Of a stretch of DNA of 64,000 nt, positions 14,420 to 55,638 are shown piece by piece (position 1 is the stretch's first letter; each line of letters starts with the position of its first letter). Made by a program: the position numbers and the translations under genes. Origin of the DNA: Prevotella sp. (GTDB lineage: Bacteria > Bacteroidota > Bacteroidia > Bacteroidales > Bacteroidaceae); the NCBI GenBank assembly GCA_024695815.1, contig JAILHK010000034.1:62001-126000 (forward strand). Direction: 5' to 3'. Below the pieces are notes generated by a model. That model was given only the letters and a program-made list of their open reading frames with translations, was not told the DNA's origin and did not search any database.

Positions 14420-16099
14420 TTATGCTGCAATGTCTGTTCCGGTGTAGAGAGTCCATGTTACACTGTTGCCGTCCTTGGCAGAGCAGATGTAAACATTACC
14501 CTTTTCGTAGGTTACACCGCCAAGCTCATAGTCAGATGTCAGCGCAATCTTCATGTTGACAGAGGTGTGTGCTGCATCGGGAAGAACGTTAGAAGAGATA
14601 ATCCAATTGATGATGCCCTGGTTCTTCATGTTGAACATGTTGTTCTCTGGACCAACAATGATAGAATTGTAACCCTTCAATGCCAAAGCATCGGTATCGT
14701 ACTCCCAGTGTGTCTTAGACAGGTCAATCTCACCGGCACCCTGCGAATTGTCGTTTGTGCGACTGCGTTTCTTCTCCTTGATGTAGTGAACAGCGTTATC
14801 CATGTCAAGCACAAACGCGTAGTCGGCCATGCCCATGAAGTCCAGCGTCTGGTCCCAGATGTAGTTCACTGTACCGAATGTGTCCTTGAAGCGCTTGAAT
14901 GTCAAATCGAACTCCGAAGCGTTTTCGAAGTGGATCTCGCGGTTCTTGCCCGGGTTGATGTTCTCCAGACGCTCGATGAAGTTCTTACCACAGAAAGCAA
15001 ATGCACGGTTAGACGTTGCGAAGTCGGTGAACTGCAGCTTATTGATAGCAACAAGGTCACTGAGCAGGAACTCGTTTCCAATTGCATAGAAGTTGGGAAT
15101 CTGATAAATCAGACCTTCTGTGTAGAACACGTCCTGCACCACGCCGCGCTCGTTCATACGCTTGCGCTTTGCCATTGGGTTCACCCAGTAACCACGTTCA
15201 CAACGCATGCCATCCTTAACCATGGCATCCTCCAGCAGGTTCGCAACCTTAACGGGGTACTTCTTCTTTGCCTTCTCAAATTCCTCAGAGAACTCAACGT
15301 TCCAACCGTGCTTCTGCAGGTAAACCTTTCGCTCACGGGGCTGGAAGTTGTCTGGGGTCACAAGCAACTGGGTTTCACTCATAGCGTTCCACATACCCAT
15401 AAGGTAAGTGCCGGCAGGGATAGCGGGAACAGTCTGATAGTCGTACTCGTCACCCTTCTGTCCCTCGATGGCTGCGGGGCCGTTGATGGCGCACAGGGTA
15501 ATGCCAGTCTTGTCTCGTTCAACCACCTCCAGCGTCAAGAACTCACCGTTATGTTCGGACTGAGAACCAGGCTTGAAGCCGCCCATAGATGGAACACTGA
15601 TAAGGTCGTACTTGCGGAACACCATAAGGTTGCCAGAGAAGTTGCTCTTTGTCAGCTTAATGGTATCACCTGCAGCAATGTTCTGCGTGGTCTTACCGTC
15701 CATTGTCTCACCACCTACACGGGCATGGTCAACCTCGTAGTTTGTTGCGGTGCGGGTCTTTGCGACACGGCTCATGATACGAAGCAGGGGCACCTTGTGC
15801 GGGCGAAGAACTACAATATCACTCTCTCGCTCTGGTTCCTCCAAACCACCGTCACGAATCTGCGTGGCAGTTGCCTGCGTACCAGTCAAATCCTGTCCGG
15901 CGCTATCACCTCCAGGCATCTGACGGTCGTTCTTCTCGGGATCAACAGGGTCATGGTCAGAAGCGGGGTCTGCCGTTGACATGTTATCCGTTTCGGGGTT
16001 CTCTACAGTGCCGACAGCCATAGCGCCACCGCCACAAAATGCAGCCAGTACAAGAAGCAAGAAGCTCAGTACTCGGCAAAAGTTCTTTGAAATTTTCAT
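14420..16099 (-). CDS. Putative major capsid protein with signal-peptide-like N-terminus
   Basis: 559 aa; follows scaffold-like gene; HK97-capsid-like C-terminal pattern (FKDTFGTVNYIWDQTLDFMGMADYAFVLDMDNAVHYI); N-term MKISKNFCRVLSFLLLVLAAFCGGGAMAV. Confidence 0.7.
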   Translation of the reverse strand: MKISKNFCRVLSFLLLVLAAFCGGGAMAVGTVENPETDNMSTADPASDHDPVDPEKNDRQMPGGDSAGQDLTGTQATATQIRDGGLEEPERESDIVVLRPHKVPLLRIMSRVAKTRTATNYEVDHARVGGETMDGKTTQNIAAGDTIKLTKSNFSGNLMVFRKYDLISVPSMGGFKPGSQSEHNGEFLTLEVVERDKTGITLCAINGPAAIEGQKGDEYDYQTVPAIPAGTYLMGMWNAMSETQLLVTPDNFQPRERKVYLQKHGWNVEFSEEFEKAKKKYPVKVANLLEDAMVKDGMRCERGYWVNPMAKRKRMNERGVVQDVFYTEGLIYQIPNFYAIGNEFLLSDLVAINKLQFTDFATSNRAFAFCGKNFIERLENINPGKNREIHFENASEFDLTFKRFKDTFGTVNYIWDQTLDFMGMADYAFVLDMDNAVHYIKEKKRSRTNDNSQGAGEIDLSKTHWEYDTDALALKGYNSIIVGPENNMFNMKNQGIINWIISSNVLPDAAHTSVNMKIALTSDYELGGVTYEKGNVYICSAKDGNSVTWTLYTGTDIAA

Positions 16100-16125: not shown

Positions 16126-16896
16126 TTATCCATTCTCTTTGATGAAGTCAGCGAGGCTTTTCTCCTTCTTTGGCTTCTGTGTCTGAGTGTGAAGTGGTCT
16201 TCCTGCAGAGAAAGAAGGCGGTACGCGACTTTCTTCATAAGTCTTGACTTTGTTTGCAAACTTCTCGTTACGCGCCTGCATAGCAGCCTCTTCTCTTGCA
16301 TCAGCTATGTCCTGGTCATAGTTCATGGCGTGAAGAATTGCAGTCCACGTTTCTTCGGAAACCTCTCCGTTGAAGGCGGGTGCAAACACCTCATTCCAGA
16401 AGTGTTCCCACATTCTATCAAACTGTTCGTCACTGATTCCCATCTTCTGCTGCACGGCTGACAAAGCTTCTAGACTCTTTCTTATGTTGTCATTCTGAGT
16501 CTTTTCGGCATTTTCTCCGTCAACCTGCTTCTGCTGCCAGTTCTTGAACTTTTCATCAACCTCTTCCATCACCTTCGGGTCGTCAAGTGCGGCCTTTACA
16601 TCAATGCCGTTTTCAACAAGCCAAACGAGAGGGTTCTTCTCTGGGTTTTCAGCCAAGTCCTTAAACATAGAACCAAGCCACCTGTTTCTGTCAAGTGCTT
16701 TTGATAGACCTGCGCCAGACTTTTTCATCGTCCTGTAGTTCTCGCGTTCCTCCGCAAGCCTACCGTATCGAGCTTCCTTGTCCTCAAAGTCAACATCAGG
16801 ATTGTCTTCAACAAACATAGATGCATACTTGTCTCGGTTAGGTCGCTGCGTTTGTTCCGTGGCCTGTGTTTGCGTCTTATTTACTTCTTCTCCCAT
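16126..16896 (-). CDS. Putative capsid scaffold protein
   Basis: Acidic/charged, coiled-coil-like, immediately upstream of capsid gene. Confidence 0.65.
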   Translation of the reverse strand: MGEEVNKTQTQATEQTQRPNRDKYASMFVEDNPDVDFEDKEARYGRLAEERENYRTMKKSGAGLSKALDRNRWLGSMFKDLAENPEKNPLVWLVENGIDVKAALDDPKVMEEVDEKFKNWQQKQVDGENAEKTQNDNIRKSLEALSAVQQKMGISDEQFDRMWEHFWNEVFAPAFNGEVSEETWTAILHAMNYDQDIADAREEAAMQARNEKFANKVKTYEESRVPPSFSAGRPLHTQTQKPKKEKSLADFIKENG

Positions 16897-16954: not shown

Positions 16955-17021
16955 ATAAAAATCATAAACTTTTGTTGGCAGATTTCGTGTTATTGAACCC
17001 TGCAAAGTGTTCTATAATAAT

Positions 17022-17059
17022 AAACACGGAAATCCAACAAGTACTTAGACCTATTTTTG
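17022..17059 (+). promoter_or_regulatory. Late-type phage promoter 3: AAACACGGAA-N20-TATTTTTG
   Basis: AAACACGGAA 17022-17031, N20, TATTTTTG 17052-17059; portal ATG at 17083. Confidence 0.75.
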
Positions 17060-17082
17060 CAGCAATAAAAAATGTCAATATA

Positions 17083-19035
17083 ATGGTCAAGATAAGAACA
17101 CGTTCACAAGTCACGCCAAAAAGCCTATACGATTCTGTAAAAGAGCGTATCAAAGCGACTGGCATACCTACACATAGTCGTAGGCGTGTCGATTACGAAT
17201 TGCTTAGTAGATGTAGGCAAGCATGGCTCAACAAAGAGGACGCACGAATAACACGTGATCGCGTTCTCGGTTATGTATTCAGAGATCAATGGGGTGACGT
17301 TATTCAATACAAGAACGGCCGCATTTCAGAGAGAAAGTATATACAGACAAAGGGTAATGTGCCACTGCAGAACAACATCATGATTTCTATACAGAACTCT
17401 GTTGTTGGTCTATATACAAAACAAGCTGGAGAACCCAACTGTTTCGCTGTTAGAAAGGACGGTCAGCAGCTCTCGGATATGATGAGCGCCACCATACAGG
17501 CATGTTGGCAGAAAACCAAAATGCTTGATGGACTTAAGAATACATTCGAAGACTTTATTGATGGTGGTATTGCCGTAGCAAGAGAGACTTACGAAGAGCG
17601 TGACGGAAGAAAGGATGCTTGGACGGACTTCTATAACCCAAATTATGTTTTCTGGGAAGCCGGCTCAGACGTTCGTATGACGGACCTACGTTTGATAGGT
17701 GTTCTTCATGATGTTGCCCCGGGAAAGCTATACAACAAGTTCTGTAATAAGGAATACGGGTGGAGTATTAAAGAGATTAACGATGTCTTTGGTATTAATA
17801 CGGACGAGCATCGTTATTTGCGTTCATCGTCTATTCAGCAGAACAACCAAGATAGTCTTGATTATATCACCTTTGACGCACCATCAGACCCATCGCTTTG
17901 TCGATTGATAGAAGTTTGGTCAAAGGAAACCAAAACACGCTATCAGTGTCACGACCCTCTAGCAAGAAACGCAGACGAGGTAGAATATAGGGTTGAGATT
18001 GAAGATATATGGCACGTTAAAGAGCAAAATAACGAGCGCATTTCTCAGTATAAGCAATATGGAATACCCGAAGAAGAGTGGGCGCTGATTGAATACGAAC
18101 TGAAAGAGGATGAATTTTGGTACTTTACCTATATGGCACCAGATGGCACCGTTCTTGCCGAAGGTGAAACTCCATATGAGTTTGGTAGCCACCCTTTCAC
18201 AATCAAGTTATATCCTTATGTAAACGCAGAGATACACCCATTTATGGGTAATATCATCGACCAACAGCGTTATATAAATCGCCTTATCATCATGCATGAT
18301 ATGGCAGCTCGCTCTGCAGCAAAGGGTCTAACTATCTTCCCTATAGAGTCTATTCCTCATGGGTACACAAAGAAGGATATTGCCGAAGAACTGACGGAAT
18401 ACGATGGACTTCTGTTCTTCCAAACCAACAAGATGAATCCAAATCTACGTCCAGAGATTATAACATCTGGCGCAGTACAACTTGGAACACAGGAGTTGTT
18501 GCAAATGGAGCTTAACCTTGCTAGGGATATTACGAACGTATCTGGTGCCCTTCAAGGAAAGTCACCAACTGCAGGAACAAGTGCCGCCCGTTATGCACAA
18601 GAGACACAAAATGCTACAACTTCTCTCGCTTCTTTGATGCAGGACTTTACATCTTTCATGGAGTCAATCGCGCATAAGAAGTGTATGATGATTAAGCAAT
18701 ACTACCAAAAGGGTAGGATGGTTGTCAATAAGGACAAAACAGGACTTATCGAATATGATAACATGTCTGTGCGTGACGTTGACTTTGAGATAACAATCAA
18801 GGAGTCCGCCTCAACTGCTTCTTTTCGAACCTACATTAATGATACGGCACTGGAGTTGCTTAATATGCAAGCCATCAACGTTAAGCAATATTTGTCTATT
18901 GTCAACCTGCCTTTCGCTGACGAACTACTTCAACTTATCGAAAAGGACGAGGCGCAACAGGCGGCAATGCAGCAACTAGCAGCACAGGGCGCAAATATGC
19001 AACAAGTAAATAACGCACAGCAAATATTACAATAG
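17083..19035 (+). CDS. Phage portal protein
   Basis: Portal-like length, composition and position; start reassigned to MVKIRTRSQ at 17083, 24 nt after the -7 element. Confidence 0.75.
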   Translation: MVKIRTRSQVTPKSLYDSVKERIKATGIPTHSRRRVDYELLSRCRQAWLNKEDARITRDRVLGYVFRDQWGDVIQYKNGRISERKYIQTKGNVPLQNNIMISIQNSVVGLYTKQAGEPNCFAVRKDGQQLSDMMSATIQACWQKTKMLDGLKNTFEDFIDGGIAVARETYEERDGRKDAWTDFYNPNYVFWEAGSDVRMTDLRLIGVLHDVAPGKLYNKFCNKEYGWSIKEINDVFGINTDEHRYLRSSSIQQNNQDSLDYITFDAPSDPSLCRLIEVWSKETKTRYQCHDPLARNADEVEYRVEIEDIWHVKEQNNERISQYKQYGIPEEEWALIEYELKEDEFWYFTYMAPDGTVLAEGETPYEFGSHPFTIKLYPYVNAEIHPFMGNIIDQQRYINRLIIMHDMAARSAAKGLTIFPIESIPHGYTKKDIAEELTEYDGLLFFQTNKMNPNLRPEIITSGAVQLGTQELLQMELNLARDITNVSGALQGKSPTAGTSAARYAQETQNATTSLASLMQDFTSFMESIAHKKCMMIKQYYQKGRMVVNKDKTGLIEYDNMSVRDVDFEITIKESASTASFRTYINDTALELLNMQAINVKQYLSIVNLPFADELLQLIEKDEAQQAAMQQLAAQGANMQQVNNAQQILQ

Positions 19036-22046: not shown

Positions 22047-22048
22047 CG

Positions 22049-22684
22049 ATGATTGTAGCAATTGGAACACCACACCGACTAAGAGAACCGGGGAAACAAT
22101 CTCCAGATCATAGACTGAGAGAATGTATTTATGGCCGAGAGATTGCATCTGAGCTAAAGACAAAACTTGAAGGATATGGAGTACGGGCCTTCATAGATAT
22201 TGAAGCTCTTGATTTGCCATTAAACATGCAAACGCCAAATGTTTCACTTGAACGTAGTAGAGAACTGAACTTACGCGTTAATTACGTAAATAACCTTTGC
22301 AGGGAATATGGAAGCGATAATGTGATATATGTTTCCATTCACAACGATGCAATGGGTGCTGATGGCAAATGGCATGATGCAAATGGGTGGAGTGTTCGCG
22401 TATCAACAAAGGCTTCGGCTAAGAGTAAGATGCTCGCTGAATGTATATTTGACGCTGCATCTGACCATGGGTTTAAGGTTCGCAAGCCTTCACAGAAGCA
22501 AAAGTATTGGCCACAAAATCTTAAGGTGTTAAACGACACAGATTGTCCGGCTGTATTGACAGAAAACTTATTCCAGGACAACAAGGCTGACGTTGACTAT
22601 TTGTTGTCAGAAGAGGGTAGGCATAATATTGTCCGTATTCATCTAGAGGGAATACTTAGATATATAGAAAAGGTAAAGGTATGA
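22049..22684 (+). CDS. N-acetylmuramoyl-L-alanine amidase (Amidase_3-type endolysin)
   Basis: IYVSIHNDAMG...GWSVRVST...CPAVLTENLFQDNKAD matches zinc amidase motifs. Confidence 0.85.
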   Translation: MIVAIGTPHRLREPGKQSPDHRLRECIYGREIASELKTKLEGYGVRAFIDIEALDLPLNMQTPNVSLERSRELNLRVNYVNNLCREYGSDNVIYVSIHNDAMGADGKWHDANGWSVRVSTKASAKSKMLAECIFDAASDHGFKVRKPSQKQKYWPQNLKVLNDTDCPAVLTENLFQDNKADVDYLLSEEGRHNIVRIHLEGILRYIEKVKV

Positions 22685-34600: not shown

Positions 34601-37600
34601 TTTGCCATGTTTGATACCCCAATGTATGAGCGCGGCTGCTGTACGACCCTTGCCGACACCTGTCATATCGCCAACAATAAAGCTCTTACCTTCTTTCATT
34701 TTTCCAATAGCCAACGCAACTGCATCGACCTGTTCTGAAGCAAGACCGGTCGTTTTTCCACTTTCAAATGCGGAAAACATTTCTTCCTTGGTTTTATAAC
34801 CAAGCTCTTCTCTTACAAAATCTGCAGTGTCGCTCTTTTGGAAAAACTTTTCCTTAAGACGTTTAAAAGCATTCCTAATAGAATCCACTATACCACTTGG
34901 TATAACGGAACCAATTGCATACTTCTTTTCGGAACTACTAGAGGCTTCGTAGTCGGTCTTTTCCTTAGAAATATCTACCAACTGCGGCTTTGGAGAGTTT
35001 TCTAATGATCCCCCTCCGCTACTGTTTCCGTTGCTAGATACCTCAGTGGCCCTTCCACTTTCTCCGGATTCATTTGCCCCCAATCCTCCTCCATTATTTG
35101 TGGGCATAGAACCCGATTGAGAACGCCCTCCTGGTTGGTCTTGATTTTCTGGGCTATCGAACAAGCCCAGTCCCATGTTTCCTTGTTCGGACTTGGTGTG
35201 TTTTCGCCCACCATTTCCATTATTTTGTCCTCGTCCAGCTGGAACTTCCACGACCCCAGAAGTTCCTCCAGTTTCTTCTTGTTTGGTTCCTCCTTCTCCA
35301 GTTCCTGGTACAGGGGGTTCAGTTCCTCTTTCGTGCGTGTTACCCAAAGCCACCCCTCCGGTGTCTCCCACGCCATCGTCCATATTTCCTGTTTCTTGTT
35401 CTCCATTGTTATTCTCGTTTACGTTAATACCTTTTTCTGCTGCCCATTCGCCTACAGTTTTCATTACACCTTCAACTTTATACGGGTAGTTCCACATGTC
35501 TTCGATAAGTTCTCTAACCTCTGCATCGGTATAACCTGTTGCTTCTTTTAGTTGCTCACCGATAAAGTCGCGCATTTGATTTACCCAGCCGTCCTTACTT
35601 TCTGTGTTATCAAGGATAGTGTAGCCAAGTTCTGCGCCGGCATCAACCACTTCAAACATAACCGCAATCTGCTCTGGTGTCAGATTATCTACACTGTAAG
35701 CATCTGTTTGGCTGTTTTTGTCATTCTTTGCAAGCTTCTTTAGCTTTGTTAGTGCAGCCTGTAACCTAGCTTGTGCTGCAGCTTGTGTAGGGCTTATGTT
35801 TGTTGTAGGGCCTGCAGGCTGAATTTCGGCAGTTGTTGAAGATGGGGTTCCTGTTTCAGCCACATTTGGTTTTTCAACCTTTGGTGTTTCGTTAGTAGGC
35901 GTTATTGGCTTTTCCGTCTCACTTTGTGGCTGTTCTACCTGCGAAGTTGTAGCTACTTTCATGTTATAGATAAATAGGTAAGCAGCCTTCGCCATTTCTG
36001 TTGTATATGGGTTTGAAATGTCGAGATAACCCTTTGCAAGTACCTTCTGTGCGTCGCCTGCGTTTGAAGAATTAATATCCTCCACGGTCAGCGGGTGTTC
36101 AGAAATAATTTTCTCTCGCTCGCTCTGAGGCTTATCAGCGGGAGTCTCTTCTACTCCTGATTCTGGAGCATTGACTTCACTTCCTCCTGTATTGTGGGGA
36201 GTCCCTTCTGCTGTCGGTCTTGGTTCGCTACTTTCAGTTGTGCTAGGGCTTGTTTCTTCCCCTCCTTGGCTGCTTTGAGGATTGTCAGCCACAGGTACAT
36301 TTCCTTCTGTTCCATTGTCTATTCCAAAAATTTGTTTGAGTGCTTGTTCTTTTGTTAATACTTCGCCTGTGGCAGGTGCGTCAAACAGACCAAGTTCGCG
36401 GGTAGAACCATTTACAAGGTCGTAATACTGACGCAGGTAGTTAGATAATGTCTTTTGGTCTTTCAGACTTGCATACATCATTGCTAACTCGATGGCAAAG
36501 TTACTATATTTTCCGATATTCTTCGAACCATCCAAGTTAATTTGTCTTAACCAGTCGTTAGCGGCTGCTCGGGCGGCGGCATAACGCTCTTCGAAGTTCT
36601 TTCCCTTAACACCTGCAAACTGAGGTGAAGAGGTCGATAACTCATGAAATGCTTGAATACTCTCCTGTAAGTCTTTAAGGATTGAGGCTTCTCCAGTGAC
36701 AGAAAGTTCCCTACCAACAGAAGATACAATTGCACCCTGTATATTCTTGGGCAGCTCATAGAACATAGTTCTAAGGTCGGGGTTGGCACCGTTGAAGATA
36801 ATATCGGTCAGCATATCCTTTGCAAATTGACGTGCTGCTTCCTTATCTTCTAACAGGCTCTTTGCCTCTGTGTCGCTGATATATCCACCTTTATTGAGCC
36901 ACCTTACTGCTTCTTCTACGTTTGCTTCCACTCTTTCAGAAAGTGTAGCATCCGGATCATCGTGACGCAACATGATATTAGCAAAGCTTGTGTAGTTGTC
37001 GCCAAGTTTGGTGACAGTAGGTGTAACCTCTGGAATCTTTCTGCCGCCAGTTTCAAGGTCTGCTGCAGTAAACTGACCAAGACGGATTGCTTCTGCATCG
37101 TTTACATCAAGAACAATGTGTGCAAATGGCTTCTCCATCTGTGCAATGGACTCTGCGGTGGTTCCGAGTTCTGCTGCGTGTGCCATCAAGAACTCCTTAT
37201 ATTTCTTAGCGACTGCTTCATTGCCAGGCGCATAGATGTATTCGGCAAGGTTTCTGCGGCCATTGCCTTGGATAACCTCACCACGTCTGTTTGTCTGTGT
37301 GGCACTTCCGCTATACGCACTCTGTGTACCATTGAAGGTAAGCATCAGTTCTGGGCGGAAGTTAGCTTCACTTGCGTTGGCCTGTGCAGCGGCCTGTCTG
37401 TCTGCGCCAAACTCTGCCTTTGGCTGTGCTTCTGGAATGAAGTGCTTATCGTTGGTCTGTCCGTTTGTAAGGTGAGAACCTTGCACATCACCAAGTTCGC
37501 TGACGGTAAGATGTCCTTTTACCTTATCCTTTGTAGAGTACTGCACCTCAACCTCCATACCCTGCGGTACAGGCTTTTCTTCTTGTCTGTCGATACGCTG

Positions 37601-40600
37601 ACCTTCAACAACCTTATATCCACGGCCACGGGCTGCTTCTGGTGTGTCGTATCTATACTCCGGAACATTCTCGTCAATGGGTTCGGTTGGTGGCGTAGGT
37701 TGAACAGGTTGTGCAGGTGCTTCAACCTGACGTGTTGCAGGAACGTTAAGAACATTCTGCCAATACTGCAAGCGGCCCTGCTCTGCTTCAATGGCATTTT
37801 TGGTCTCTTGCATTTCGGCGATCTTCTCCTGTAGGGTCTTGCCTTTTAGTTCGCCTTTCTGTTGCTTCTCTTGTGTTTTTTGCAGATTGGCAAGATTGGC
37901 CTCCGACTCATTAATCATGCTCTGCACAAGGGCAGGAACATTTTCTTCACCTGCTTGTTCTACAAGTGCATTGTAGGTATCTTCATTCGATGCTTGCTCG
38001 TACTGAGGTTGACCATCTTCGCCTACCGGTATGCGTGACATGGCAGTGGTCTGCTCAACATCTGCATCATCTGCAACAACCTCTTCGGTTGGTGCTGCAT
38101 CTGTAGTTGGTGCGCCTTCTACCTCTACACCACTAGGCTGTTCGCTTTCAATTATAGGCTGCTCTTCGTCCATTGCACCCAACTTAGCACTTTCCTCGTT
38201 CTGTAGGCGTTCAAGTTCTGCGAGTTGGAACTGGTCAAGCCTAATTGGTGTCTCACTTACCACAAGATGCGAGTCCGTTCCAAGCTGAACTATATCGCCG
38301 TTAGCATCAACGGCAAGGATAAGTCCGCTATCAGAAGAGATTACGTTACCATCGTTATCCGTCTGAATATTACCACTAACGAGATTGTAGCTATTCTCGC
38401 CATCGGTTACAGCCATGATGTTTATATCTTTTTTCTGGCCGTTGATAGTACCTTTAAACGTATTCCTCTCACGCGTGTTGGCTGCAGCCTCAGCAAGTTT
38501 ATCACTCTTACGGTTCATGTATGATTCATACCTCGCCTTTTGGTTGTAGTAGTCAATAAGGATGGCACGCTCTTCGTCAGTCGCCCAATCAAGAGCTGAT
38601 ATGATTTCCTGATGTGAAAGGTCCTGCTGTTCTCTTTGCATAACCTCTTGCGCAAGAGTTTCGTTTCTTTCGAATAGCTTATCACGAGATACTTTTGCAC
38701 CTTCAAATCCGGTCTTAATCTCCATTCCATCGGTGCCATCGCTAGAGTCATAATCAATAGCTTCTGCATCTGCAACAGACGAACCATCCTGGGCGCTCTG
38801 TTCTTCGTGAAGTTCGCTATTATCAAAAGCTGCTTCGTGCATCTTCTTAGAGAAGGCAAGAATCATCTTCTGTTCTTCATCGGTACGCTTCATGGGGTCT
38901 TTCTCCATGGCGTTCTCTACCTCTTCTGGTTGTGCACCTGTCTCACCACAGAACTCTTGAAGGATCATGTTGTATTGGTTGCCCGGCCTTACAGAGAGAA
39001 TATACTTGTCAGACATCATATCTTTCTGTAGGCGGTCATTCAACATTTTGTAGTGAGCTGCCTTCATTTCGTCACGATTATTATACTCGTGTGTGCTGAG
39101 AACGTTTCCTTTTTCGTCAAGTTCCTCAATGGTATTGCCTGTGATTCTGTATGAGTCAACGCGAGGGGTGTTATAGACACCATTGGCTGCTGCTACTGCG
39201 TTGCCAATATTAAAACCTCTAAGAGCGATAAGGTCGCTTGCATACATAACGACAGCTTTTTTCTCTTCTGCAGACAGACCAGCATGCGAGATAGCGTTAT
39301 TCAGAGTGTTAGCAAAGTCCTTATTCTCTGCATTGTCAAGCATATCCTTGATGGCACGATAACGTTCTACATCGTCGAATGTGTCTCGCATCCCCTTATC
39401 TGTAGTATTCAGATTGTACTTCAATCCGTAGTAGTGGGCCTGCTGATAGCCACTCGCCATAATCTGAGGGGCGCGGAGAATGCCAGACGTTAAACCAGTC
39501 TTGGCCCATGTGTCGAGCTGTGTATGTAGGTCAGTGATACTCTCTGCGTTTGGATCATATTCATCGCCAGTCACAGCGTTAAGGATTGCAGTACGAGCCA
39601 TTCCATACTCTTCTTCAAATCCTTCACCGAACACGCTCTGAACACCAAGGAAGTTGAGGGTTTTTTCACCCGCCTTCCATACTTTGTTATCTGTGAACTT
39701 TGTAACGAAGTTAGTTATGTTCTTACCAATGGCCGTTTTAGCCCATTTGGCTGCCACCTTTCCAAAAACAGAGTCAATGCCGGGGCCTACCAATTCTGAT
39801 GCATTTTCTCCAGAGCGATTCAGCTCTTCAAAGAAAGCTGCCTTTAAAGCATTGGTGCCTCCTTCGAAATTAATATCGCCTTGCTTGTTTACGGTCAGTT
39901 CGCCAGAATATCTATCTGCAATACCTGCCATGGTAGATGCTGCTTGTATGGTGTTGGCTGAAATGGTACCACCAATCTCAGCGCCAATGGCACCACCTAC
40001 AACCTTTGAGCCAACCATCATGCTCTTATTGACCAAAGCAGCACTCTTGGTACCGAGGTTCTTTGTGAGGGCTTTCGTAAGTTCAGAAGCAACCATCTTT
40101 GTTCCTGCTTTGGCTCCCATATTAACACCGGCCTTATAAAGGTTGGCAAAACCGCCACCTGTAAGCGCAAAGTCTTTCATGAACACAAGTGACTGACCAA
40201 ATCCCTGTCCGGCACCATACCACCAACTGCGATTGTTGTTCAGTTGTTGTGCCTCCTGGTTGAGAAGGTAACTCTTCATGAGGGACTTCTCACTATCGGT
40301 AAATTCTGGTTTAACACCTTTTGCTTTGGCTTCATCCATCTTCTTCTTAAGCCCAAGCATTGCGCTAGAAGTATTAAGGTCTGAAAGTCCAAAGGTCATA
40401 GATGATTCGCTCGATACTACGTCCCATACACCACCGCCAAAACCTTTGTTGTCACGCTCAGCTTCCAATGCTGTCAGTCGCTGTGCTGCAAGACTGCGGG
40501 CCGCCCTAATTTCCTTGATGCTCTTATCATTTTGAGCCATATAAGAACCGTCAACAACCACACCACCTATAGTTGTTCCACCAATAGGTGTGCTATATTT

Positions 40601-41440
40601 CTGTGAGGCTTTTGCATAGGCTTCCTTTTCTTTTTTAGAAAGTTCTTGCATTTCCTTTTTGGTATCTTCTATCTGCTCTTCGATAGATCTTTCGCCAGAA
40701 ATATCAATGCCGAGGTCAAGCATCGTACTCTTGAACCTCTCATTATCCACCATCTGATCGTTGAAGTTCTGTGCTTCGTCAGCCTGGTTGACATCTGAGT
40801 ATTCTTGTCCCGTGGTGGTAACATATTTATCCTCCCAAGAACCTGTCTCAGCATTAAACGACTTCTTTACGCGAAGATTCTTGTTACGGCCTGCGCCAGC
40901 TTCACCAATGCCAGTTGTGGCCATATTCTTCACTCCTTCATCGAACTTGTCAATACCCTTTGTGGCATTCTGAATAGCACCCTTTGCGTTTCCGATGGTC
41001 ATATTCATGGCCATTTCTTCCTGCCACGTTGGCTTATAGCCACCACTCTGCTGAGGCTGAGCTGCTTCTGCAGGTTTTGTTTGTGGTTGAGTCTGAGCTT
41101 GTGGCTTCGGTTTCTCCACATTGAGATTAGACGCCATCGTCCTTGCAGTGGCATCCATGCTCTCGATAGTAGCCATCGGGTTATTGGTTGGAATATTAGG
41201 CTTCGCCTGTGGTTGTGGTGCTGCGAAGTCGCTACTTATTGCGTTATAGAAATCATCCTCAGAACCTATCTCTTGGTCACTAAAAACACCACTACTGATA
41301 AGGTTTTGATGGAACTGACGCGATGTGTTCTCGTCCTTAATAGCTGCCTTAAATTCGTCAAGGCTTCCAATCTGTTGGTCTGTTACCTTACCACTATTGA
41401 TAAGATTGTGGTAAAGTTGCTCTCTTTTATCTTGTGCCAT
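25673..41440 (-). CDS. Giant polyvalent phage protein (5255 aa): N-terminal repeats, ParB-like region, strawberry-notch-type SF2 helicase, two zincin motifs, C-terminal large-polyvalent-protein region
   Basis: GDMTGVGKGRTAAAL Walker A (~34643-34675), ILDESHN, QMRGRIDRTGQ; HELIHT (30638-30655), HEMIHN (29591-29608); IQGNGRRNLAEYIY ParB-like. Confidence 0.9.
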   Translation of the reverse strand: MAQDKREQLYHNLINSGKVTDQQIGSLDEFKAAIKDENTSRQFHQNLISSGVFSDQEIGSEDDFYNAISSDFAAPQPQAKPNIPTNNPMATIESMDATARTMASNLNVEKPKPQAQTQPQTKPAEAAQPQQSGGYKPTWQEEMAMNMTIGNAKGAIQNATKGIDKFDEGVKNMATTGIGEAGAGRNKNLRVKKSFNAETGSWEDKYVTTTGQEYSDVNQADEAQNFNDQMVDNERFKSTMLDLGIDISGERSIEEQIEDTKKEMQELSKKEKEAYAKASQKYSTPIGGTTIGGVVVDGSYMAQNDKSIKEIRAARSLAAQRLTALEAERDNKGFGGGVWDVVSSESSMTFGLSDLNTSSAMLGLKKKMDEAKAKGVKPEFTDSEKSLMKSYLLNQEAQQLNNNRSWWYGAGQGFGQSLVFMKDFALTGGGFANLYKAGVNMGAKAGTKMVASELTKALTKNLGTKSAALVNKSMMVGSKVVGGAIGAEIGGTISANTIQAASTMAGIADRYSGELTVNKQGDINFEGGTNALKAAFFEELNRSGENASELVGPGIDSVFGKVAAKWAKTAIGKNITNFVTKFTDNKVWKAGEKTLNFLGVQSVFGEGFEEEYGMARTAILNAVTGDEYDPNAESITDLHTQLDTWAKTGLTSGILRAPQIMASGYQQAHYYGLKYNLNTTDKGMRDTFDDVERYRAIKDMLDNAENKDFANTLNNAISHAGLSAEEKKAVVMYASDLIALRGFNIGNAVAAANGVYNTPRVDSYRITGNTIEELDEKGNVLSTHEYNNRDEMKAAHYKMLNDRLQKDMMSDKYILSVRPGNQYNMILQEFCGETGAQPEEVENAMEKDPMKRTDEEQKMILAFSKKMHEAAFDNSELHEEQSAQDGSSVADAEAIDYDSSDGTDGMEIKTGFEGAKVSRDKLFERNETLAQEVMQREQQDLSHQEIISALDWATDEERAILIDYYNQKARYESYMNRKSDKLAEAAANTRERNTFKGTINGQKKDINIMAVTDGENSYNLVSGNIQTDNDGNVISSDSGLILAVDANGDIVQLGTDSHLVVSETPIRLDQFQLAELERLQNEESAKLGAMDEEQPIIESEQPSGVEVEGAPTTDAAPTEEVVADDADVEQTTAMSRIPVGEDGQPQYEQASNEDTYNALVEQAGEENVPALVQSMINESEANLANLQKTQEKQQKGELKGKTLQEKIAEMQETKNAIEAEQGRLQYWQNVLNVPATRQVEAPAQPVQPTPPTEPIDENVPEYRYDTPEAARGRGYKVVEGQRIDRQEEKPVPQGMEVEVQYSTKDKVKGHLTVSELGDVQGSHLTNGQTNDKHFIPEAQPKAEFGADRQAAAQANASEANFRPELMLTFNGTQSAYSGSATQTNRRGEVIQGNGRRNLAEYIYAPGNEAVAKKYKEFLMAHAAELGTTAESIAQMEKPFAHIVLDVNDAEAIRLGQFTAADLETGGRKIPEVTPTVTKLGDNYTSFANIMLRHDDPDATLSERVEANVEEAVRWLNKGGYISDTEAKSLLEDKEAARQFAKDMLTDIIFNGANPDLRTMFYELPKNIQGAIVSSVGRELSVTGEASILKDLQESIQAFHELSTSSPQFAGVKGKNFEERYAAARAAANDWLRQINLDGSKNIGKYSNFAIELAMMYASLKDQKTLSNYLRQYYDLVNGSTRELGLFDAPATGEVLTKEQALKQIFGIDNGTEGNVPVADNPQSSQGGEETSPSTTESSEPRPTAEGTPHNTGGSEVNAPESGVEETPADKPQSEREKIISEHPLTVEDINSSNAGDAQKVLAKGYLDISNPYTTEMAKAAYLFIYNMKVATTSQVEQPQSETEKPITPTNETPKVEKPNVAETGTPSSTTAEIQPAGPTTNISPTQAAAQARLQAALTKLKKLAKNDKNSQTDAYSVDNLTPEQIAVMFEVVDAGAELGYTILDNTESKDGWVNQMRDFIGEQLKEATGYTDAEVRELIEDMWNYPYKVEGVMKTVGEWAAEKGINVNENNNGEQETGNMDDGVGDTGGVALGNTHERGTEPPVPGTGEGGTKQEETGGTSGVVEVPAGRGQNNGNGGRKHTKSEQGNMGLGLFDSPENQDQPGGRSQSGSMPTNNGGGLGANESGESGRATEVSSNGNSSGGGSLENSPKPQLVDISKEKTDYEASSSSEKKYAIGSVIPSGIVDSIRNAFKRLKEKFFQKSDTADFVREELGYKTKEEMFSAFESGKTTGLASEQVDAVALAIGKMKEGKSFIVGDMTGVGKGRTAAALIHWGIKHGKKVIFVTEKSKLFSDMYRDMSDIGQDYMPFITNKDAEADITDEDGKKVISRPKPSVQNALYDTAEDKLPKNEKGRQYDFVMTTYTQISGKDEEGSVKASQKRKDWLRLYAKDAILILDESHNASGESNTGRFFRELVQESAGTTFLSATYAKRPENMLLYAVKSSMSALNMPLNEMLQAIKEYGVSMQEIMAEALFKSGEMIRRERDMSGVKTTWTEPREIYSEEEYEKCRTTSDKTMSLVQDIIDFQHDYVDPLVKKQQEQYELQNQAAAKTGGVLTFVTNTSYKSQVSNVTNLMVFAMKAKKAAEMAIEQIKQGGKPIIAVHNTMESYVKELGDEIDTINFKPIFDKGVKFSLKYVITQKQLDENNRLKTINRVEFDAEDELDSAGAIALANLRSRIEEYIADNDKVELSLSPIDLIRHMMADAGYSCGEITGRKYQLERNQSGGYTKMPYKAKGKDVMRRFNGGSAKSPLPKEEQFDALIINDAGATGISGHASKNFGNQNPRKMIILQPNADVTKEVQMRGRIDRTGQVHRGEYFYVSSPIPAEQKLMMTLKKKLSSLDAQSTGTKDVSSNKVDAIDMDNKYGDEVCKNYLLEHLNDINSLLDKDTGLKRNDKTGEWEGHTGLLYDVLINIQRLPCAIQERVINELSQRYIDHIDYLNQNGINDLESTTMNLEATTIDKATFISGKDNESENEFAHDSSIERVEVNVLKKPMRSSDIKKKMKELDALDEDGLPKGGLTQQTDEKVAEAIEKKINERQERYNEQETKLEEKLRSEHPKKDEQTEEEWETMIQNWPSLVEMRRSHTADINTYKGELGDQQNTVYHAAMYLKPGRPYLVPLTDDISSDAALMYGRFLGFQTKNGDPRQVKAVFAVKDSRSMISIPVVNNSKTIQKIIDERGDLEIIALERTDFGEELPMGSRAKKWDEWWDKMIPKNTNRQIRFMITGNVLQACGSLGKYKGQIVTFTRKNKETGEITVERGMLLAENFDPENFKVRKAVEKKDVWEHYDEVKDEQSGVSCHREGSHMAIVFTKRKGQKLSEHPAMKDDVLKGLIMDGDLRPSKKDIACVVKEENVEKVLDHLHKEYGYSKEELFVMPDSTEKPDAIVRTNRPYQEIIEEFKDKYGSSKYSVSLKIKQMLKRYKMDINNDSLKEEIKEAVMLRQAYLRQEQAGKESNRLAWQVLIEDQYIEKLTASEDKDARERHMQIREAILEELEYRGFKGNAYHYQQGKLTLDDVKAMFDKMNDATTEEGKAKKVLFDKIMAKVGNLPMEIFMNEKLSNDIGGQAGGKVVEYNWKYMNADYIADQAKADTILHELIHTVTAYADRCVEEGYEHLLDSEMIDAINELHNIFNVIENNPIFEHDGIPAYGLTNVREMLSEAGSNSEFRADLKKVGLWAKLKAGILMFFGIKQNQTMPGAKEVNVYDQIIERLDYLIENFNEAAWNEYYKGTRYGNYGYKKMDAQKIDTTDPMEAIEQAAESWTGSQNLLNDSQSNNNGSGNDITLQPEKSYTNRHGVYREGLSEELQRLEKESKKADAQSSGIKLQQRVAATRRRINIIRAELSRRQKVREDLRKKYNIDKKGNITLENLAMMFNDLNNDERTGKIFNKVLAVLKRLKVDFRFTDSLEGGVNGGANPLINITFYNWDAQTQNIENQDKARILLHEMIHNVTSQVLLYYSKPLLRPLLSYSQISAARKLNAIYKEVKKQDPKNDKGDSYYGNISIFEMLAELANPKYRTALDNIKYNNTSIWQQIKDAIKKMLNLGNKDTSSSTSENIEDALDEILESYNSPINRLKHRAMRDIFDVANRVFGNGEDTVDFVEKLDNNENTNVFMDALNKAADSWNEDRNKLNADIDAANEYSAKQVYQQRIDTAGTVTTEAYQDSMVSLKVAQNAIAHDKDIPDSQNAYMAENLSHGKIKNEQDLFKAFHKDAIVEVVSRIMKKTGMGWHEIDRYLFAKHGLERNREFFVRDFIEKRSKQNIGKEPLNEGEDALYESILNRIETDFEDGVIDEEKRKKLIAKAPMEARYRWLDYIEDGWKSTKKDSYKELTDGNITFGQYLWRLTSFINNEITDYIPEEHDYSGFTAMYGNEDGEYDEVSVIADVETSEDIIGSGVDVLWEKIGAANKYSLEKYRQAGMKTDKQIDDVESMFNWYVPMRGFKEKRGEDMYQYINSRDTRGVQKTGSLMKHAKGRFSEADSPLATIFAMGYKAIVDCNRNIVKQHLWRLCNANQDNDLIILREAWVEQDANGDWEAVYPQITDDMSVEEIREEIKRFDNDMRDKKSIGLALPIRNTEHFDYKPADQSKRSEHIVEVMVNGDKKTMIVVGNPRMAQAINGLTKFSIGDNWLSKANAAAKNWMSQASTTYNITFMARNMARDWTHFTAILSAREGARYAAEAASYYTKSLPKMVGLFKKYRNGTIDESNELERDFKEFMDNGGTTGFVQMNKVQDIQKDMKNTIAAMKRNKAIKTTDGIITAVFNAVEAWNEAIENNARFATYRTSRHYAGRTKQRSAYDAKEVTVNFNKKGAGNVTAGFKSEKGRVRLAAELAGHSSQLLGEGKMFFNATIQALATIFKGFKNNDGTLNWKNIAKFTSIYALPPFAGAIMAAAVNKALMGLAGDDDDAYANLPEWVRRKNMCIYMGWVPGIEEILTDKDSPAWLKKMFHGSFLTLPIGQEMAAFYGLGDMIAGWTINPDLIPVNQSVSNELTGFLNVFSPVDFETPISSKEGIGSTLPSLVGRVSTVGAPIVAVGENLSWMGTRIFMEDNFPHQQYVPEYKMVFNSTNKTFVAISKGLNDITGGDDVNRGYIQINPGTMQYITEQYLGGPGKFFANTLSIARDAKEMIKSDGEPDFNIRKVEVVKAFLQQGDDRTDYKRQQAKYKNYRDEAREREAHIKGYKKDMATNPYHSMKYHELTSGVDYARMKLIKSVDKNLKKLNDDAINAKSVSSRKEKRDAYNRLLKDVVERLDNMNE

Positions 41441-42484: not shown

Positions 42485-43006
42485 ATGAAGTACGACTATG
42501 ATATATCCAGACAACTACAAGACGACCTTATAAAAGCTTATAATAAGGTTGCACACCTATGTTGGTCACAGGCAGAGGCCTACCAAAAGACCGTTATTCA
42601 GCCTGCGCCAAGGTTCTACGTGAGTCCAAAGCAAGCGCTGCAGATTATATCACCCATGGTTAAGGGTGACTTTAGTCGGGTTGAACTCATGCGTCCGATT
42701 AAGAAGCGTATGTATTATGCTTTATATGATGTGGTTGTAAAGTTGTCGGAAAAAAGACAATTTGTTGGAAAGTCTCTTTTCTACATCTTGCAATTTGCTG
42801 TGTTGTCGCCGGCACCAGAGTTCTATATTTCCCCGGTCAACTTCTCTCTTATCCGTGCAGGAATGATTAAGGGCACAATATCTGATGATGGTCGCCCCAT
42901 GAAAACGGAAGCACAGAAACGATCCTACGAGAAGTTGAAGAAGAAACGTAAAGAGCTTCGTGAATACAGAGAGAAAATGAAGATGCTCAAAATGACGCCT
43001 CTGTAA
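42485..43006 (+). CDS. Basic phage protein (173 aa), tail-to-tail overlap with terminase
   Basis: ORF; Lys/Arg-rich C-term KLKKKRKELREYREKMKMLKM. Confidence 0.65.
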   Translation: MKYDYDISRQLQDDLIKAYNKVAHLCWSQAEAYQKTVIQPAPRFYVSPKQALQIISPMVKGDFSRVELMRPIKKRMYYALYDVVVKLSEKRQFVGKSLFYILQFAVLSPAPEFYISPVNFSLIRAGMIKGTISDDGRPMKTEAQKRSYEKLKKKRKELREYREKMKMLKMTPL

Positions 43007-45149
43007 GCTCTCTAGTTTCCCTCTTTCGTTCAATTACCGTACCCCACGATGGTTTATATGGAGTAGCATTAAAGGCTACCCATAGTCCTATTGCTGTACT
43101 CATAAGAATATCATCATGCTTTCCGCTGCCGACTTTATTTCCCATGGATCCATCTTCCCTACGCTCATACCATCTTAATTCCTTATACATTTCCGCGTCA
43201 GGCTCTTCCCATAATTTATCGTCAACGCATGCTATAAGGTTATCAATTATCCATCCCTTTGTAAGCTTGTTGGTTTGGAATCCGTAAACAGGCTTGATGC
43301 CCTCAGATGTCGCTTCTGGTTCTTTTGTTCTTTGATATAGGTTAGGGTAGTAGCCGGCAATCTCTTCGATGATTGTTCCGAAGTGATCACCCTCTGTATT
43401 ATTCTCACGTTCCCTATCAGCCGTGTTACTCTCGATGATTAGAGTGGCATCATCATAGTAGTGAGCAAGAGCTGCTGCAGTCCATGCGAGAATATCGTGA
43501 CGGACATGCCCCCTCCACCTTGCAACAACCCTCGGTCTGCCTTTTACCTCTGGGCATAGTCCCATTTGGTCAATAACAGTCATAACGGTATAGTCTGAGG
43601 TATCTGACTTACCACCAATATCCACAGAAACAAGATACCTATTCTTTACATGGAAGATGTGGTTATTAGGTGTGGCCCAAATCTTTAAATCACCTTGGTT
43701 GTCGTTTCTAAAGTTGATTTTTGCGTTAAGATATACGTTATCGTTGCGCCTTTCAAATGGTGGAAGTACGATATTTGCGTAATACTTAGGAGGCCCTGGC
43801 TTGCATTCCTCTTTCAGTGCATCAATTGAATAAGGGTCAAAGACAAGGTTGCCGGAGTTACGGAAGGCTTCTTCGGGGTCTATTGGTGCTTCGGTAGCCA
43901 TGTGGGCATGGTCTCTGTGCTTATTGCGCTCTATTCTATACCAGTTGATAGCTTCAAAACATGCACCAAGCTTCCACATCTTCCAAAAGAACTTACCAGT
44001 TTCACGATAACCAGGAGGGCATTGCTCATTATTTCTATTCTCCCATAACCATGTGGCAAATTCCTCTTGTTGCTTCTCGTTAAAGCCCTTATCTCCCTTT
44101 GGTTCCATATCGTTCTCGATCATAAAGAACGGAATGAAAAGAAAGCGGTATGCAGATGTAGAGTTTTCTTTCATGGCATCTTGGCATAGGTCATAGAAGA
44201 AGCCACTATTACCCATACCGGTACTTTCGAATACCTCAATCTCGTCTGGAAGTCCGATAAGTGACTGCGAAGCTGCAGAAAGCACACCCTCTGGGTCATG
44301 CTCTGGTGTCTTTTTCCATATAGCAACCTCTGAATAGTGCAGGCACTTGTAGTTATCACCACGAAGCTTCTCATAGTTCTCGAACGATGCTACAGAAATA
44401 ACGTTACTACGAACAGCAAAACGCCCGTCAGAGACGATAAAGTCAGAGTCAGAACCCTCATAAGGCAACATCTTGAACTTTGTTCCAGGAAGTCCCAACG
44501 TCCATCCTTGTTGAGACTCGATAGCCTTACGATACATAGCCTTAATCTTCTTTGATGTAGAACCAACCTGTGTTACCACGGCTGCATTCCAACCATTCGG
44601 GTGTCTGTAGTCCTGCATCCACTTGATATACATCTGAACAAGGGTAGAACCGCCCCACTGACGAGCCTTAAGAAGAACGACACGAATAGGTATTCCTGCC
44701 TTTCTCATGCCCTCTAGGACGGCAATCAAGACCCTCTGAGCATATCTAAGACGGAAAGGCGTAAGATTACCGGTTATCTTATGCACAATCTTATCCGTCA
44801 TAAACATGGCAAACTCGGGGTCGTCAATAAAGCGAGCCTGGAACAGTGCTTCTATAACGTCCATATGGTAATCTTCATCGTAATCACGGCCCATGCCATT
44901 CTCCACATACTTCTGAATACTACCATACCTAAGAACCTCATTCCAAATCACTGTCTCTAAGGTCTCTTTCGGCACCCACATGTCTTTTATCAAGTCCTCA
45001 CCAATGTAAAGGTCTGGAATTGTCACATGCACCCTGTCACCTTCCTTAAAACCATAGCAATTGAAGCCGGTAAATGGATCGTAAGGGCCAAATATCTCTT
45101 GCCTTCGCCTGTTATTCTCTGCTATTAACTCTCGTATCTCTTGATTCAT
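42987..45149 (-). CDS. Phage terminase large subunit
   Basis: LLKARQWGGSTLVQMYIKW (Walker A-like), YLVSVDIGGKSDTSDYTVMTVID and HYYDDATLIIESN nuclease-type motifs. Confidence 0.9.
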   Translation of the reverse strand: MNQEIRELIAENNRRRQEIFGPYDPFTGFNCYGFKEGDRVHVTIPDLYIGEDLIKDMWVPKETLETVIWNEVLRYGSIQKYVENGMGRDYDEDYHMDVIEALFQARFIDDPEFAMFMTDKIVHKITGNLTPFRLRYAQRVLIAVLEGMRKAGIPIRVVLLKARQWGGSTLVQMYIKWMQDYRHPNGWNAAVVTQVGSTSKKIKAMYRKAIESQQGWTLGLPGTKFKMLPYEGSDSDFIVSDGRFAVRSNVISVASFENYEKLRGDNYKCLHYSEVAIWKKTPEHDPEGVLSAASQSLIGLPDEIEVFESTGMGNSGFFYDLCQDAMKENSTSAYRFLFIPFFMIENDMEPKGDKGFNEKQQEEFATWLWENRNNEQCPPGYRETGKFFWKMWKLGACFEAINWYRIERNKHRDHAHMATEAPIDPEEAFRNSGNLVFDPYSIDALKEECKPGPPKYYANIVLPPFERRNDNVYLNAKINFRNDNQGDLKIWATPNNHIFHVKNRYLVSVDIGGKSDTSDYTVMTVIDQMGLCPEVKGRPRVVARWRGHVRHDILAWTAAALAHYYDDATLIIESNTADRERENNTEGDHFGTIIEEIAGYYPNLYQRTKEPEATSEGIKPVYGFQTNKLTKGWIIDNLIACVDDKLWEEPDAEMYKELRWYERREDGSMGNKVGSGKHDDILMSTAIGLWVAFNATPYKPSWGTVIERKRETRELTEASF

Positions 45150-45592
45150 ACCTTACTCTTTCGTGTAATACCTATCAAATAACCACCAAATAGGCAGTAA
45201 AGGTGAATAAACGCATTAACATGGGGAAGCATGAACGAAAGCGCCAAAAACCACTTGTTGTTCCAAATCATATCCTTAAAACGATGGACCTTACCCCATG
45301 ATATTCCAACCATACAAAACAACACACCACTAAAACCCATGGTCGGCTCACTCATGAAACATGGGAGAAACGAACATATCACAGCACACAAATAAGACAA
45401 AACAAGGTGCATCCTCGTCCGAATCATCCAAAAACATAAGATATTCGCCAATAGATGATATATGTTGGCATGGCTCAAAGGATAAAGAACATGCCCCCAA
45501 AAATTATCACAAGGAAAAGAAAATGCCGGAAGAAAAAAGTAAAATATTACCAGAACAACCGACAAAACTAACTTCTTCTTCCACCAACGCAT
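45146..45592 (-). CDS. Rhomboid-like intramembrane serine protease
   Basis: Multi-pass hydrophobic protein with HANIYHLLANI, GFSG (GxSG) and HVNAFIHLYCLFGGYLIG (catalytic His helix pattern). Confidence 0.75.
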   Translation of the reverse strand: MRWWKKKLVLSVVLVIFYFFLPAFSFPCDNFWGHVLYPLSHANIYHLLANILCFWMIRTRMHLVLSYLCAVICSFLPCFMSEPTMGFSGVLFCMVGISWGKVHRFKDMIWNNKWFLALSFMLPHVNAFIHLYCLFGGYLIGITRKSKV

Positions 45593-45954
45593 AACCTAAA
45601 TACTGAATAAAACAACAATATGAACAACAAAACCATCATCGTCTCGCCGTAGGCGATCTTTTTTTTCTGCCACCACGTCAGTTCCTTCTCTACTGGATAA
45701 GGAATACTGTCACGCTTGACAAAACTATCGGTAACAATCCTATCCCTCCACCTATCCCTAAACTCTGTACGCCATTTAGTAATACGTATAGTATCATTCA
45801 TACGCTCAGAAGAAACAGAATCATGGATATATACACTATCCCACGAAACAAAAGAGTCAGTACGAGTAATATACTCAGTGTGTACCTCAGGAACATAACG
45901 GATCGTCCTACAACTGCATAAGAACAATAACACAAACAAAATTGTATAACGCAT
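45568..45954 (-). CDS. u-spanin-like lipoprotein (lipobox plus C-terminal TM)
   Basis: MRYTILFVLLFLCSC lipobox; C-terminal ETMMVLLFILLFYSVFRLCVG TM segment; 128 aa. Confidence 0.65.
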   Translation of the reverse strand: MRYTILFVLLFLCSCRTIRYVPEVHTEYITRTDSFVSWDSVYIHDSVSSERMNDTIRITKWRTEFRDRWRDRIVTDSFVKRDSIPYPVEKELTWWQKKKIAYGETMMVLLFILLFYSVFRLCVGGRRS

Positions 45955-50239: not shown

Positions 50240-50533
50240 ATGAAGAGATTATTAATGATTATTGTGCTTGCCTTAATGGTAGGCACAATTTGCGCCCAAT
50301 CGGGCATCAAGCGACAAGGTAACACCTTTATAGAGGTAAGTAACAAACAAGCCAAAGGAGAGGACATCAAGACTCCTTACACCTACAAGGCAAAGGATGG
50401 TAAGATTTATCCCATTTTTCGTTCCAAGAACGGAAAGTATTATATCATCCGTACAAGCAAGAAGAGCGGGAAAGAATATAAGCAATATTTGCCACAAGTA
50501 ACCGAAGCACTATGCGATACTACGAAGAGTTGA
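50240..50533 (+). CDS. Small secreted protein of phage accessory region
   Basis: Signal peptide MKRLLMIIVLALMVGTICAQ; YTYKAKDGKIYPIFRSKNGKYYIIRTSKKSGKEYKQYL. Confidence 0.7.
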   Translation: MKRLLMIIVLALMVGTICAQSGIKRQGNTFIEVSNKQAKGEDIKTPYTYKAKDGKIYPIFRSKNGKYYIIRTSKKSGKEYKQYLPQVTEALCDTTKS

Positions 50534-54131: not shown

Positions 54132-55271
54132 TTATTGTCCCATACCAACTGCTTCTACTATTGTTGAGTCTAAGACCTTTGCATATGTCTTTTCGGTCTC
54201 TCTTATGCTTGCGTGACCAAGTAAGTGCTGAACGATATGCATAGGCAGCTTATACTCGTTTATCATTATTGTCGCCCCAGTATGCCTTGCCCAGTGTGTT
54301 GTAACAGGCTTGTTAATACCTGCACACAAAACGGCAACCTTAAGATATTCGTTGTACTTAACATTGCTGATGATGGGCAGTTTGTAGTTATATCGCTGCA
54401 GGATATTCATCGCAGGCTTCACCAATACCGATATAAAGGATTGTCTTGTTTTTATCCTTTTATTCTTATATATAACCTGTCCGCTAACCTCTTCGCACTT
54501 ATCGTAACTAAATTCCGCCAAATCTGAATACGACATCATCGTGTATGCCTGGAATATAAATAGGTCACGAACCCTGCGAAGCTTATCAATATCTATGTTG
54601 CACGACTCAAAGCGATGAAATTCTGCAGGTGTAAGACACCTCTTTAACCCATCCTCGTCACCTCTTTTGATATTCAGCTTCGCATATGGGTTGCGCTTAA
54701 TCAGTCCGTCATTGATGGCTTCGTCAATAAACATCTTCAACAACTTGTGGTAGTTCCAACGAGTTGACTCCTTTTGACCCATCCCAGAAAGCACTCTATC
54801 CATATCCATTATCTTCCTTTCACTTATATCGGAGAAATATACTATCCCTTTCCATTTATTGATAAACCTGAGGAATACATCATACCTTTTGCGTGTTCCT
54901 TCTGCGATGGTTGGATATTTTCTTTGTGTAGATCTTGTGATGTATGATACAAACGTCCCTGTCTGCTTCAACTCGTCCTGCAATATAGATGGCAGAGCGT
55001 TAATATCAATCTCACCCTGCTTAATCATTGCGGTTATGACAGATGTTGCCTTTTGCTTGATAATATGGAGCTGTTCGTTTAGTTCCATATAATCGTCACG
55101 GCATGCCGACACAAAGCCACCCTTAGACCACTCCTTAGGTAATAGCTTAATGCCTGTATTGACATACTTTTGCTTGCCATCTACATAAATTCTTAGCTCT
55201 ACGGGTGCAGAAACACCTCTTTTTGCACGACCTCTTCGGTCATAAATAAATGTTAAAGTTGGTACAATCAT
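54132..55271 (-). CDS. Tyrosine recombinase (phage integrase, Bacteroidetes type)
   Basis: THWARHTGATIMI (HxxR) and HLLGHASIRETEKTYAKV; adjacent to tRNA. Confidence 0.92.
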   Translation of the reverse strand: MIVPTLTFIYDRRGRAKRGVSAPVELRIYVDGKQKYVNTGIKLLPKEWSKGGFVSACRDDYMELNEQLHIIKQKATSVITAMIKQGEIDINALPSILQDELKQTGTFVSYITRSTQRKYPTIAEGTRKRYDVFLRFINKWKGIVYFSDISERKIMDMDRVLSGMGQKESTRWNYHKLLKMFIDEAINDGLIKRNPYAKLNIKRGDEDGLKRCLTPAEFHRFESCNIDIDKLRRVRDLFIFQAYTMMSYSDLAEFSYDKCEEVSGQVIYKNKRIKTRQSFISVLVKPAMNILQRYNYKLPIISNVKYNEYLKVAVLCAGINKPVTTHWARHTGATIMINEYKLPMHIVQHLLGHASIRETEKTYAKVLDSTIVEAVGMGQ

Positions 55272-55500: not shown

Positions 55501-55573
55501 TGTGATCCGCTTGGGGTTCGAACCCAAGACCCCAACATTAAAAGTGTTGTGCTCTACCAACTGAGCTAGCGGA
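55501..55573 (-). tRNA. tRNA-Lys (anticodon TTT)
   Basis: Acceptor GATCCGC/GCGGATC, D-loop AGTTGGTAGA, anticodon loop CTTTTAA, T-arm TTGGGTTCGAACCCAA. Confidence 0.95.
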
Positions 55574-55638
55574 TCAACCTCAGTGCTTTTAAATAAAAGC
55601 GGGTGCAAAGGTACAAACTTTTTTTGAACCCGCCAAAT

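Follow-up and report, generated by a model that had tools for sequence, protein, structure and literature searches.

A lineage of Bacteroidales tailed phages carries, as a core late gene, a gene for a rhomboid-family protein directly 5′ of the gene for the terminase large subunit (TerL), and the capsid proteins of these phages begin with a hydrophobic leader. We give about even chances to the reading that the rhomboid cuts this membrane leader during head maturation. If this is true, it would be the first known tailed-phage capsid maturation through intramembrane proteolysis; our literature searches found no such paper, and as far as they reached the capsid-maturation role that we infer for a phage rhomboid is new. 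It would also help to explain the signal-peptide-like leaders on Bacteroidales phage capsid proteins, and a bacterial-type rhomboid could then be matched with a specific predicted natural substrate. The proposal can be tested directly in the isolated phages BKO1-TP3, BS-TP4 and BF1-TP2.

The phage rhomboid and its place beside the terminase gene

The 64,000-nucleotide stretch of Prevotella DNA analysed here (the window) contains one end of a prophage integrated into a Bacteroidales MAG. The prophage end is marked by a tyrosine integrase gene (54132..55271, minus strand, PF00589) adjoining a tRNA-Lys gene (55502-55575, found by ARAGORN), with host genes beyond them. The source assembly has a separate, larger rhomboid on another contig. 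The phage ORF at 45146..45592 (minus strand, ATG start codon) encodes 148 aa and is, as judged from its sequence and predicted structure, a minimal six-helix rhomboid and a predicted protease with an intact active site. The hallmarks listed in an earlier note on this DNA are present: HANIYHLLAN (H41, H46 and N50), GFSG (S88, codon 45329-45331) and a histidine in the last helix. That note was right about the histidine-bearing helix, but the catalytic residue is H130 (NAFIH-LYC; codon 45203-45205) and not H124, the first H of HVNAFIH, which varies among homologues. The family assignment and the six-helix core are both borne out. The window ORF scores 24.3 bits with Pfam PF01694 (Rhomboid; cut-off 22.6), all 29 viral sequences in alignment A2 hit PF01694 as well (E≤0.1), and phmmer relates the window protein to GlpG with E=0.004. 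An AlphaFold2 model built with the 29 viral sequences as input has a pLDDT of 91.7. Foldseek ranks 1-34 in the PDB are GlpG rhomboids only, with probability 1.00 and a TM-score of up to 0.72, the best E-value being just 1.1e-3; in a viral structure library the top two matches are GlpG-like podovirus proteins.

Among 93 distinct phage homologues G86, S88 and H130 are invariant. H41 is kept in 91 of them and H46 together with N50 in 92, with no exception to the latter pair among sequences covering those positions. GlpG and the phage protein share the fold, the GxSG serine at the start of helix 4, the histidine of the last helix (helix 6), the HxxxxHxxxN motif of helix 2 and the standard N-in/C-in charge pattern. 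The phage protein differs in being shorter, in its weak Pfam score, in being phage-encoded beside TerL and in the HxxC of the last helix in most members, where HxxG is usual. It adds a new branch to a family already known, with annotated examples that predate this analysis. Rhombosortase identity was rejected: with the NCBIfam model TIGR03902 the relatives reach at most 17.3 bits against an equivalog cut-off of 84, and the window protein gives no match. In close pairs the rhomboid has a median dN/dS of 0.15 (14 pairs), which indicates purifying selection; the corresponding values are 0.12 (capsid protein) and 0.04 (TerL). Rhomboid pairwise distances track TerL distances (r=0.78) and capsid distances (r=0.69). 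Since the sequences are related, these figures express conservation and not independent events.

TerL is encoded at 42987..45149 on the minus strand (phrog_24361 terminase, 1.7e-4; homologues are annotated as terminase), and its start overlaps the rhomboid stop by 4 nt (ATGA), so that the rhomboid is indeed upstream of terminase on this strand. On the other side a u-spanin-like gene (45568..45954, minus strand) overlaps the rhomboid start by 25 nt, as had been described. Its product has an N-terminal lipoprotein-like signal and a C-terminal TM segment, as judged by eye and by hydropathy, and gives no family or profile match.

The linkage to TerL is conserved. All 86 distinct rhomboid homologues with TerL in the locus are encoded immediately before it on the same strand. 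A TerL-only search of IMG/VR returned 19 loci, 18 of them with upstream sequence, and in each of these 18 TerL is directly preceded by the rhomboid. Because the arrangement is found in 86/86 cases, we conclude that the rhomboid is a core late gene of the lineage and not stray cargo. Both the conservation next to TerL that the earlier note had proposed to look for and the late-gene position are thereby supported. Its statement that rhomboids are very unusual in phage genomes is partly right: in the lineage studied the gene is universal, and phage rhomboids have been annotated elsewhere too. Related loci occur in Prevotella MAGs, Bacteroides congonensis, Phocaeicola and the three isolated Bacteroides phages BKO1-TP3 (PQ571269), BS-TP4 (PQ571277) and BF1-TP2 (PQ571263), in two of which the gene is annotated as rhomboid. 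These three share with the window the rhomboid directly 5′ of TerL and a leader-bearing capsid protein; they differ in the gene upstream, and their rhomboids are 27-36% identical to ours. Loci L254 and L256 keep the rhomboid in spite of a broken linkage to TerL. A relocated TerL, with rhomboid and leader both retained, is seen in one cluster and in genome G078.

The capsid protein and its N-terminal leader

The gene at 14420..16099 (minus strand) encodes the major capsid protein, which by profile and model comparison is SU10-like with an HK97 fold. PF17236 (SU10_MCP) matches 12 of 15 aligned capsid relatives; the window copy alone stays below the PF17236 threshold and aligns with the relatives that match. 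The capsid profile finds the VP1 capsid in the PDB (3e-12), and Foldseek relates the model (pLDDT 72 overall) mostly to tailed-phage capsids, with VP1, phicrAss001, SU10 and HK97 among the matches. With the capsid protein of the window as query, tblastn found no match among named phages at E 0.01. The model has a helix at residues 3-23, disorder to about residue 100 and then the shell domain. Upstream lie a scaffold-like gene directly 5′ of the capsid gene (16126..16896, minus strand, phrog_22323) and, on its other side, a P22-like portal gene (16972..19035, plus strand, PF16510 4.8e-29).

Residues 1-28 of the capsid protein (16016..16099, minus strand), MKISKNFCRVLSFLLLVLAAFCGGGAMA, form the leader that we regard as the candidate rhomboid substrate. 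Capsid loci were searched with two clade alignments from which the first 40 residues were left out, the mixed alignment A3 having too few conserved stretches. These leader-free queries recovered 117 loci, and the leader is present in all 114 that have a complete N-terminus. It consists of a basic end, about 17 hydrophobic residues and a near-invariant small-residue motif, G..MA, followed by an acidic stretch and a long disordered tether; its last residues are SGGGAMA (rumen clade) or GASSGVMMA (Bacteroides clade). Among 92 homologues G23 is kept in 89, G24 in 85, M27 in 85 and A28 in 89. The motif is conserved like the shell domain, and the sequence flanking it on either side is not: mean pairwise identity reaches 56% in residues 20-28 and 51% in the shell domain but falls to 28% in the linker that follows the motif.

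Leader and rhomboid go together in the phages, and the relation has a direction. Among 99 leader loci with TerL, a rhomboid lies in the locus in 88 and elsewhere in the record in 8 (96/99); the remaining 3, where it was not found, are fragments of 14-24 kb. The leader is absent from the capsid proteins of the non-Bacteroidota phages SU10, CRP-7 and Vibrio 1.205.O. No rhomboid was detected in the stretches of CRP-7 and Vibrio 1.205.O, and the annotation of the first 30 kb of SU10 lists none. With few leaderless lineages covered, the correlation has little weight on its negative side. SU10-like capsid genes occur in 22 of 295 Bacteroidales genomes, most of them with the leader, and G078 is the only one of the 22 with a linked rhomboid; in G084 and G315 the capsid protein has no leader and there is no linked rhomboid. 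We rejected a strict exclusive pairing, given about 18 elements in these 295 genomes that have a leader and no linked rhomboid. In the phages examined a rhomboid implies a leader, but the presence of a leader gives no assurance of a linked rhomboid. Elements with a leader and without a linked rhomboid seem domesticated, and each of their hosts carries at least one rhomboid itself; here either host rhomboids would have to serve or the leader needs none.

A proposed role in head maturation and competing explanations

The following sequence of events can be proposed. The leader would place the capsid protein, or the growing prohead, at the inner membrane; the rhomboid would cleave it at or near the glycine motif; and the cut would free proheads for maturation and DNA packaging. 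The wider generalisation, that heads of this lineage have a capsid anchored by a cleavable inner-membrane leader and that a phage intramembrane protease, not a soluble prohead protease, matures them, we put forward tentatively and hold to be slightly less probable than its opposite. Proheads of T4 and SPN3US are located at the inner membrane, and in SPN3US they remain there without the protease, proteolysis being required for their release (PMC7411985). The proposed N-terminal capsid cut enabling head maturation resembles the work of prohead proteases of the HK97 S78 and T4 gp21 types. Unlike those, the phage rhomboid is an unrelated, membrane-embedded enzyme, whose fold places it in none of the known prohead protease families. 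An S78 prohead protease was not found in 11 records, and no protease family was found among the head genes of the window and BKO1-TP3. Capsid leaders are not unique to the rhomboid-bearing lineage, since the capsid proteins of the P. gingivalis phages (Nixviridae), which also belong to Bacteroidales, have signal-peptide-like leaders; these are thought to be cut by a classical prohead protease, and rhomboids are unmentioned there (PMC10367356).

Rhomboid substrates follow a P4/P1/P2′ rule (PMC2941825), and with G24 as P1 this rule, which is permissive, fits 80 of 92 leaders. The N-in/C-in charge pattern of the rhomboid means that its active site should open towards the periplasm; the leader, basic at its N-end and acidic after, should be N-in by the positive-inside rule, which would put the glycine motif on that same side. 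There is a difficulty: full translocation of an N-in leader would carry the capsid domain out of the cytosol, in which it has to stay. Unless the leader inserts only partly or transiently, or is cut before translocation goes further, the model is wrong.

An alternative explanation, which we consider unlikely but well worth weighing, is that the rhomboid is an active protease that cuts a different membrane protein, belonging to the host or to a competing phage, in host takeover, superinfection exclusion or counter-defence, while the leader is handled by another enzyme such as host signal peptidase I. A precedent exists in Stenotrophomonas phages DLP3 and DLP5, whose rhomboids lie among moron-like genes; their gp93 resembles ours as a phage-borne rhomboid and is set apart by the table of that paper, where it stands among hypothetical genes with no tie to TerL or capsid (PMC7326821). 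The domesticated elements with leaders and no linked rhomboid fit this explanation as well, as do the A-x-A sites found in some leaders. Moron genes come and go, whereas the rhomboid is found in every sufficiently complete relative, beside TerL, and its divergence parallels that of TerL and the capsid protein. As for the signal peptidase, the leader motif is conserved beyond what that enzyme needs and the A-Q junction favoured in Bacteroidetes occurs in just 1 of 92 leaders, so that ordinary processing by signal peptidase I is disfavoured. It is improbable, though not negligibly so, that the leader stays on the capsid as a membrane or interface anchor or assembly element and that the rhomboid targets another component of the head pathway. 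What speaks for this is a small conserved gene of the phrog_27246 family (window 42485..43006, plus strand), which in many relatives lies directly 5′ of the rhomboid and overlaps its start; the overlap persists in relatives with a relocated TerL gene, which leaves room for a different partner of the rhomboid. On the other hand, no hydrophobic segment was found in the phrog_27246 protein or in the scaffold, and in the late-region proteins of the window, BKO1-TP3 and BF1-TP2 the clear shared membrane segments, variable lysis-like genes aside, are those of the capsid leader and the rhomboid.

Among the roles offered by the earlier note, virion maturation through the membrane leader of the capsid is the one that the comparative data favour, with cleavage itself inferred, and the link to lysis and the spanin is weak. 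Regulation of lysis through cutting of the u-spanin or a holin seems to us quite improbable, even though the u-spanin-like gene is overlapped by the rhomboid in the window and in some relatives and its C-terminal TM segment would be N-out, as rhomboid substrates typically are. The Bacteroides phages and most relatives have another small gene upstream and a spanin-like protein of another architecture, which tells against the suggested role in lysis timing; we rejected the spanin as a constant partner on the same grounds. The amidase and holin-like genes of the window are elsewhere, at 21582-22684. The fold alone would also permit a pseudoprotease, an iRhom- or derlin-like chaperone that inserts or extracts the capsid protein. 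We regard this as very improbable: pseudoproteases lose the catalytic serine or histidine, whereas both are invariant in the 93 homologues, and assignment to the iRhom/derlin class was rejected since the pair is retained.

Other features of the phages and of related elements

The phrog_27246 family is a constant neighbour (window 42485-43006; L254:3350-3802; L256:13167-13541) and has a repeated PAP-x-FY-x-x-P motif. Some annotations of the isolated phages deserve a comment. In the records PQ571269, PQ571277 and PQ571263 TerL is labelled 'tail spike protein', and the BKO1-TP3 rhomboid is labelled 'glycoside hydrolase'. A reverse transcriptase annotated in the late region of BKO1-TP3 (L252:23818-25308) is possibly part of a diversity-generating retroelement. 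The same phage type is seen in a Bacillota MAG (L261, JAMPFD010000007.1), which is perhaps mis-binned.

In the Bacteroidales genomes sampled (G080, G087, G148, G168, G189 and others; loci L076-L099 and L103-L122), an SU10-like capsid gene with a leader occurs once or twice in each genome sampled from several families. Several of these elements have no portal or TerL match alongside, and in G168 TerL is elsewhere among host genes. It is possible that these leader-bearing elements are domesticated and gene-transfer-agent-like.

Two further ORFs of the window were noted. A single ORF of 5255 aa (15.8 kb) fills 25673-41440; its counterpart in BKO1-TP3 is annotated as DarB-like antirestriction, and its product is perhaps an injected internal virion protein. 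A small secreted-looking protein encoded at 50240-50533 has an A-Q junction (ICAQSG) and, unlike the capsid leaders, fits the signal-peptidase Q rule of Bacteroidetes.
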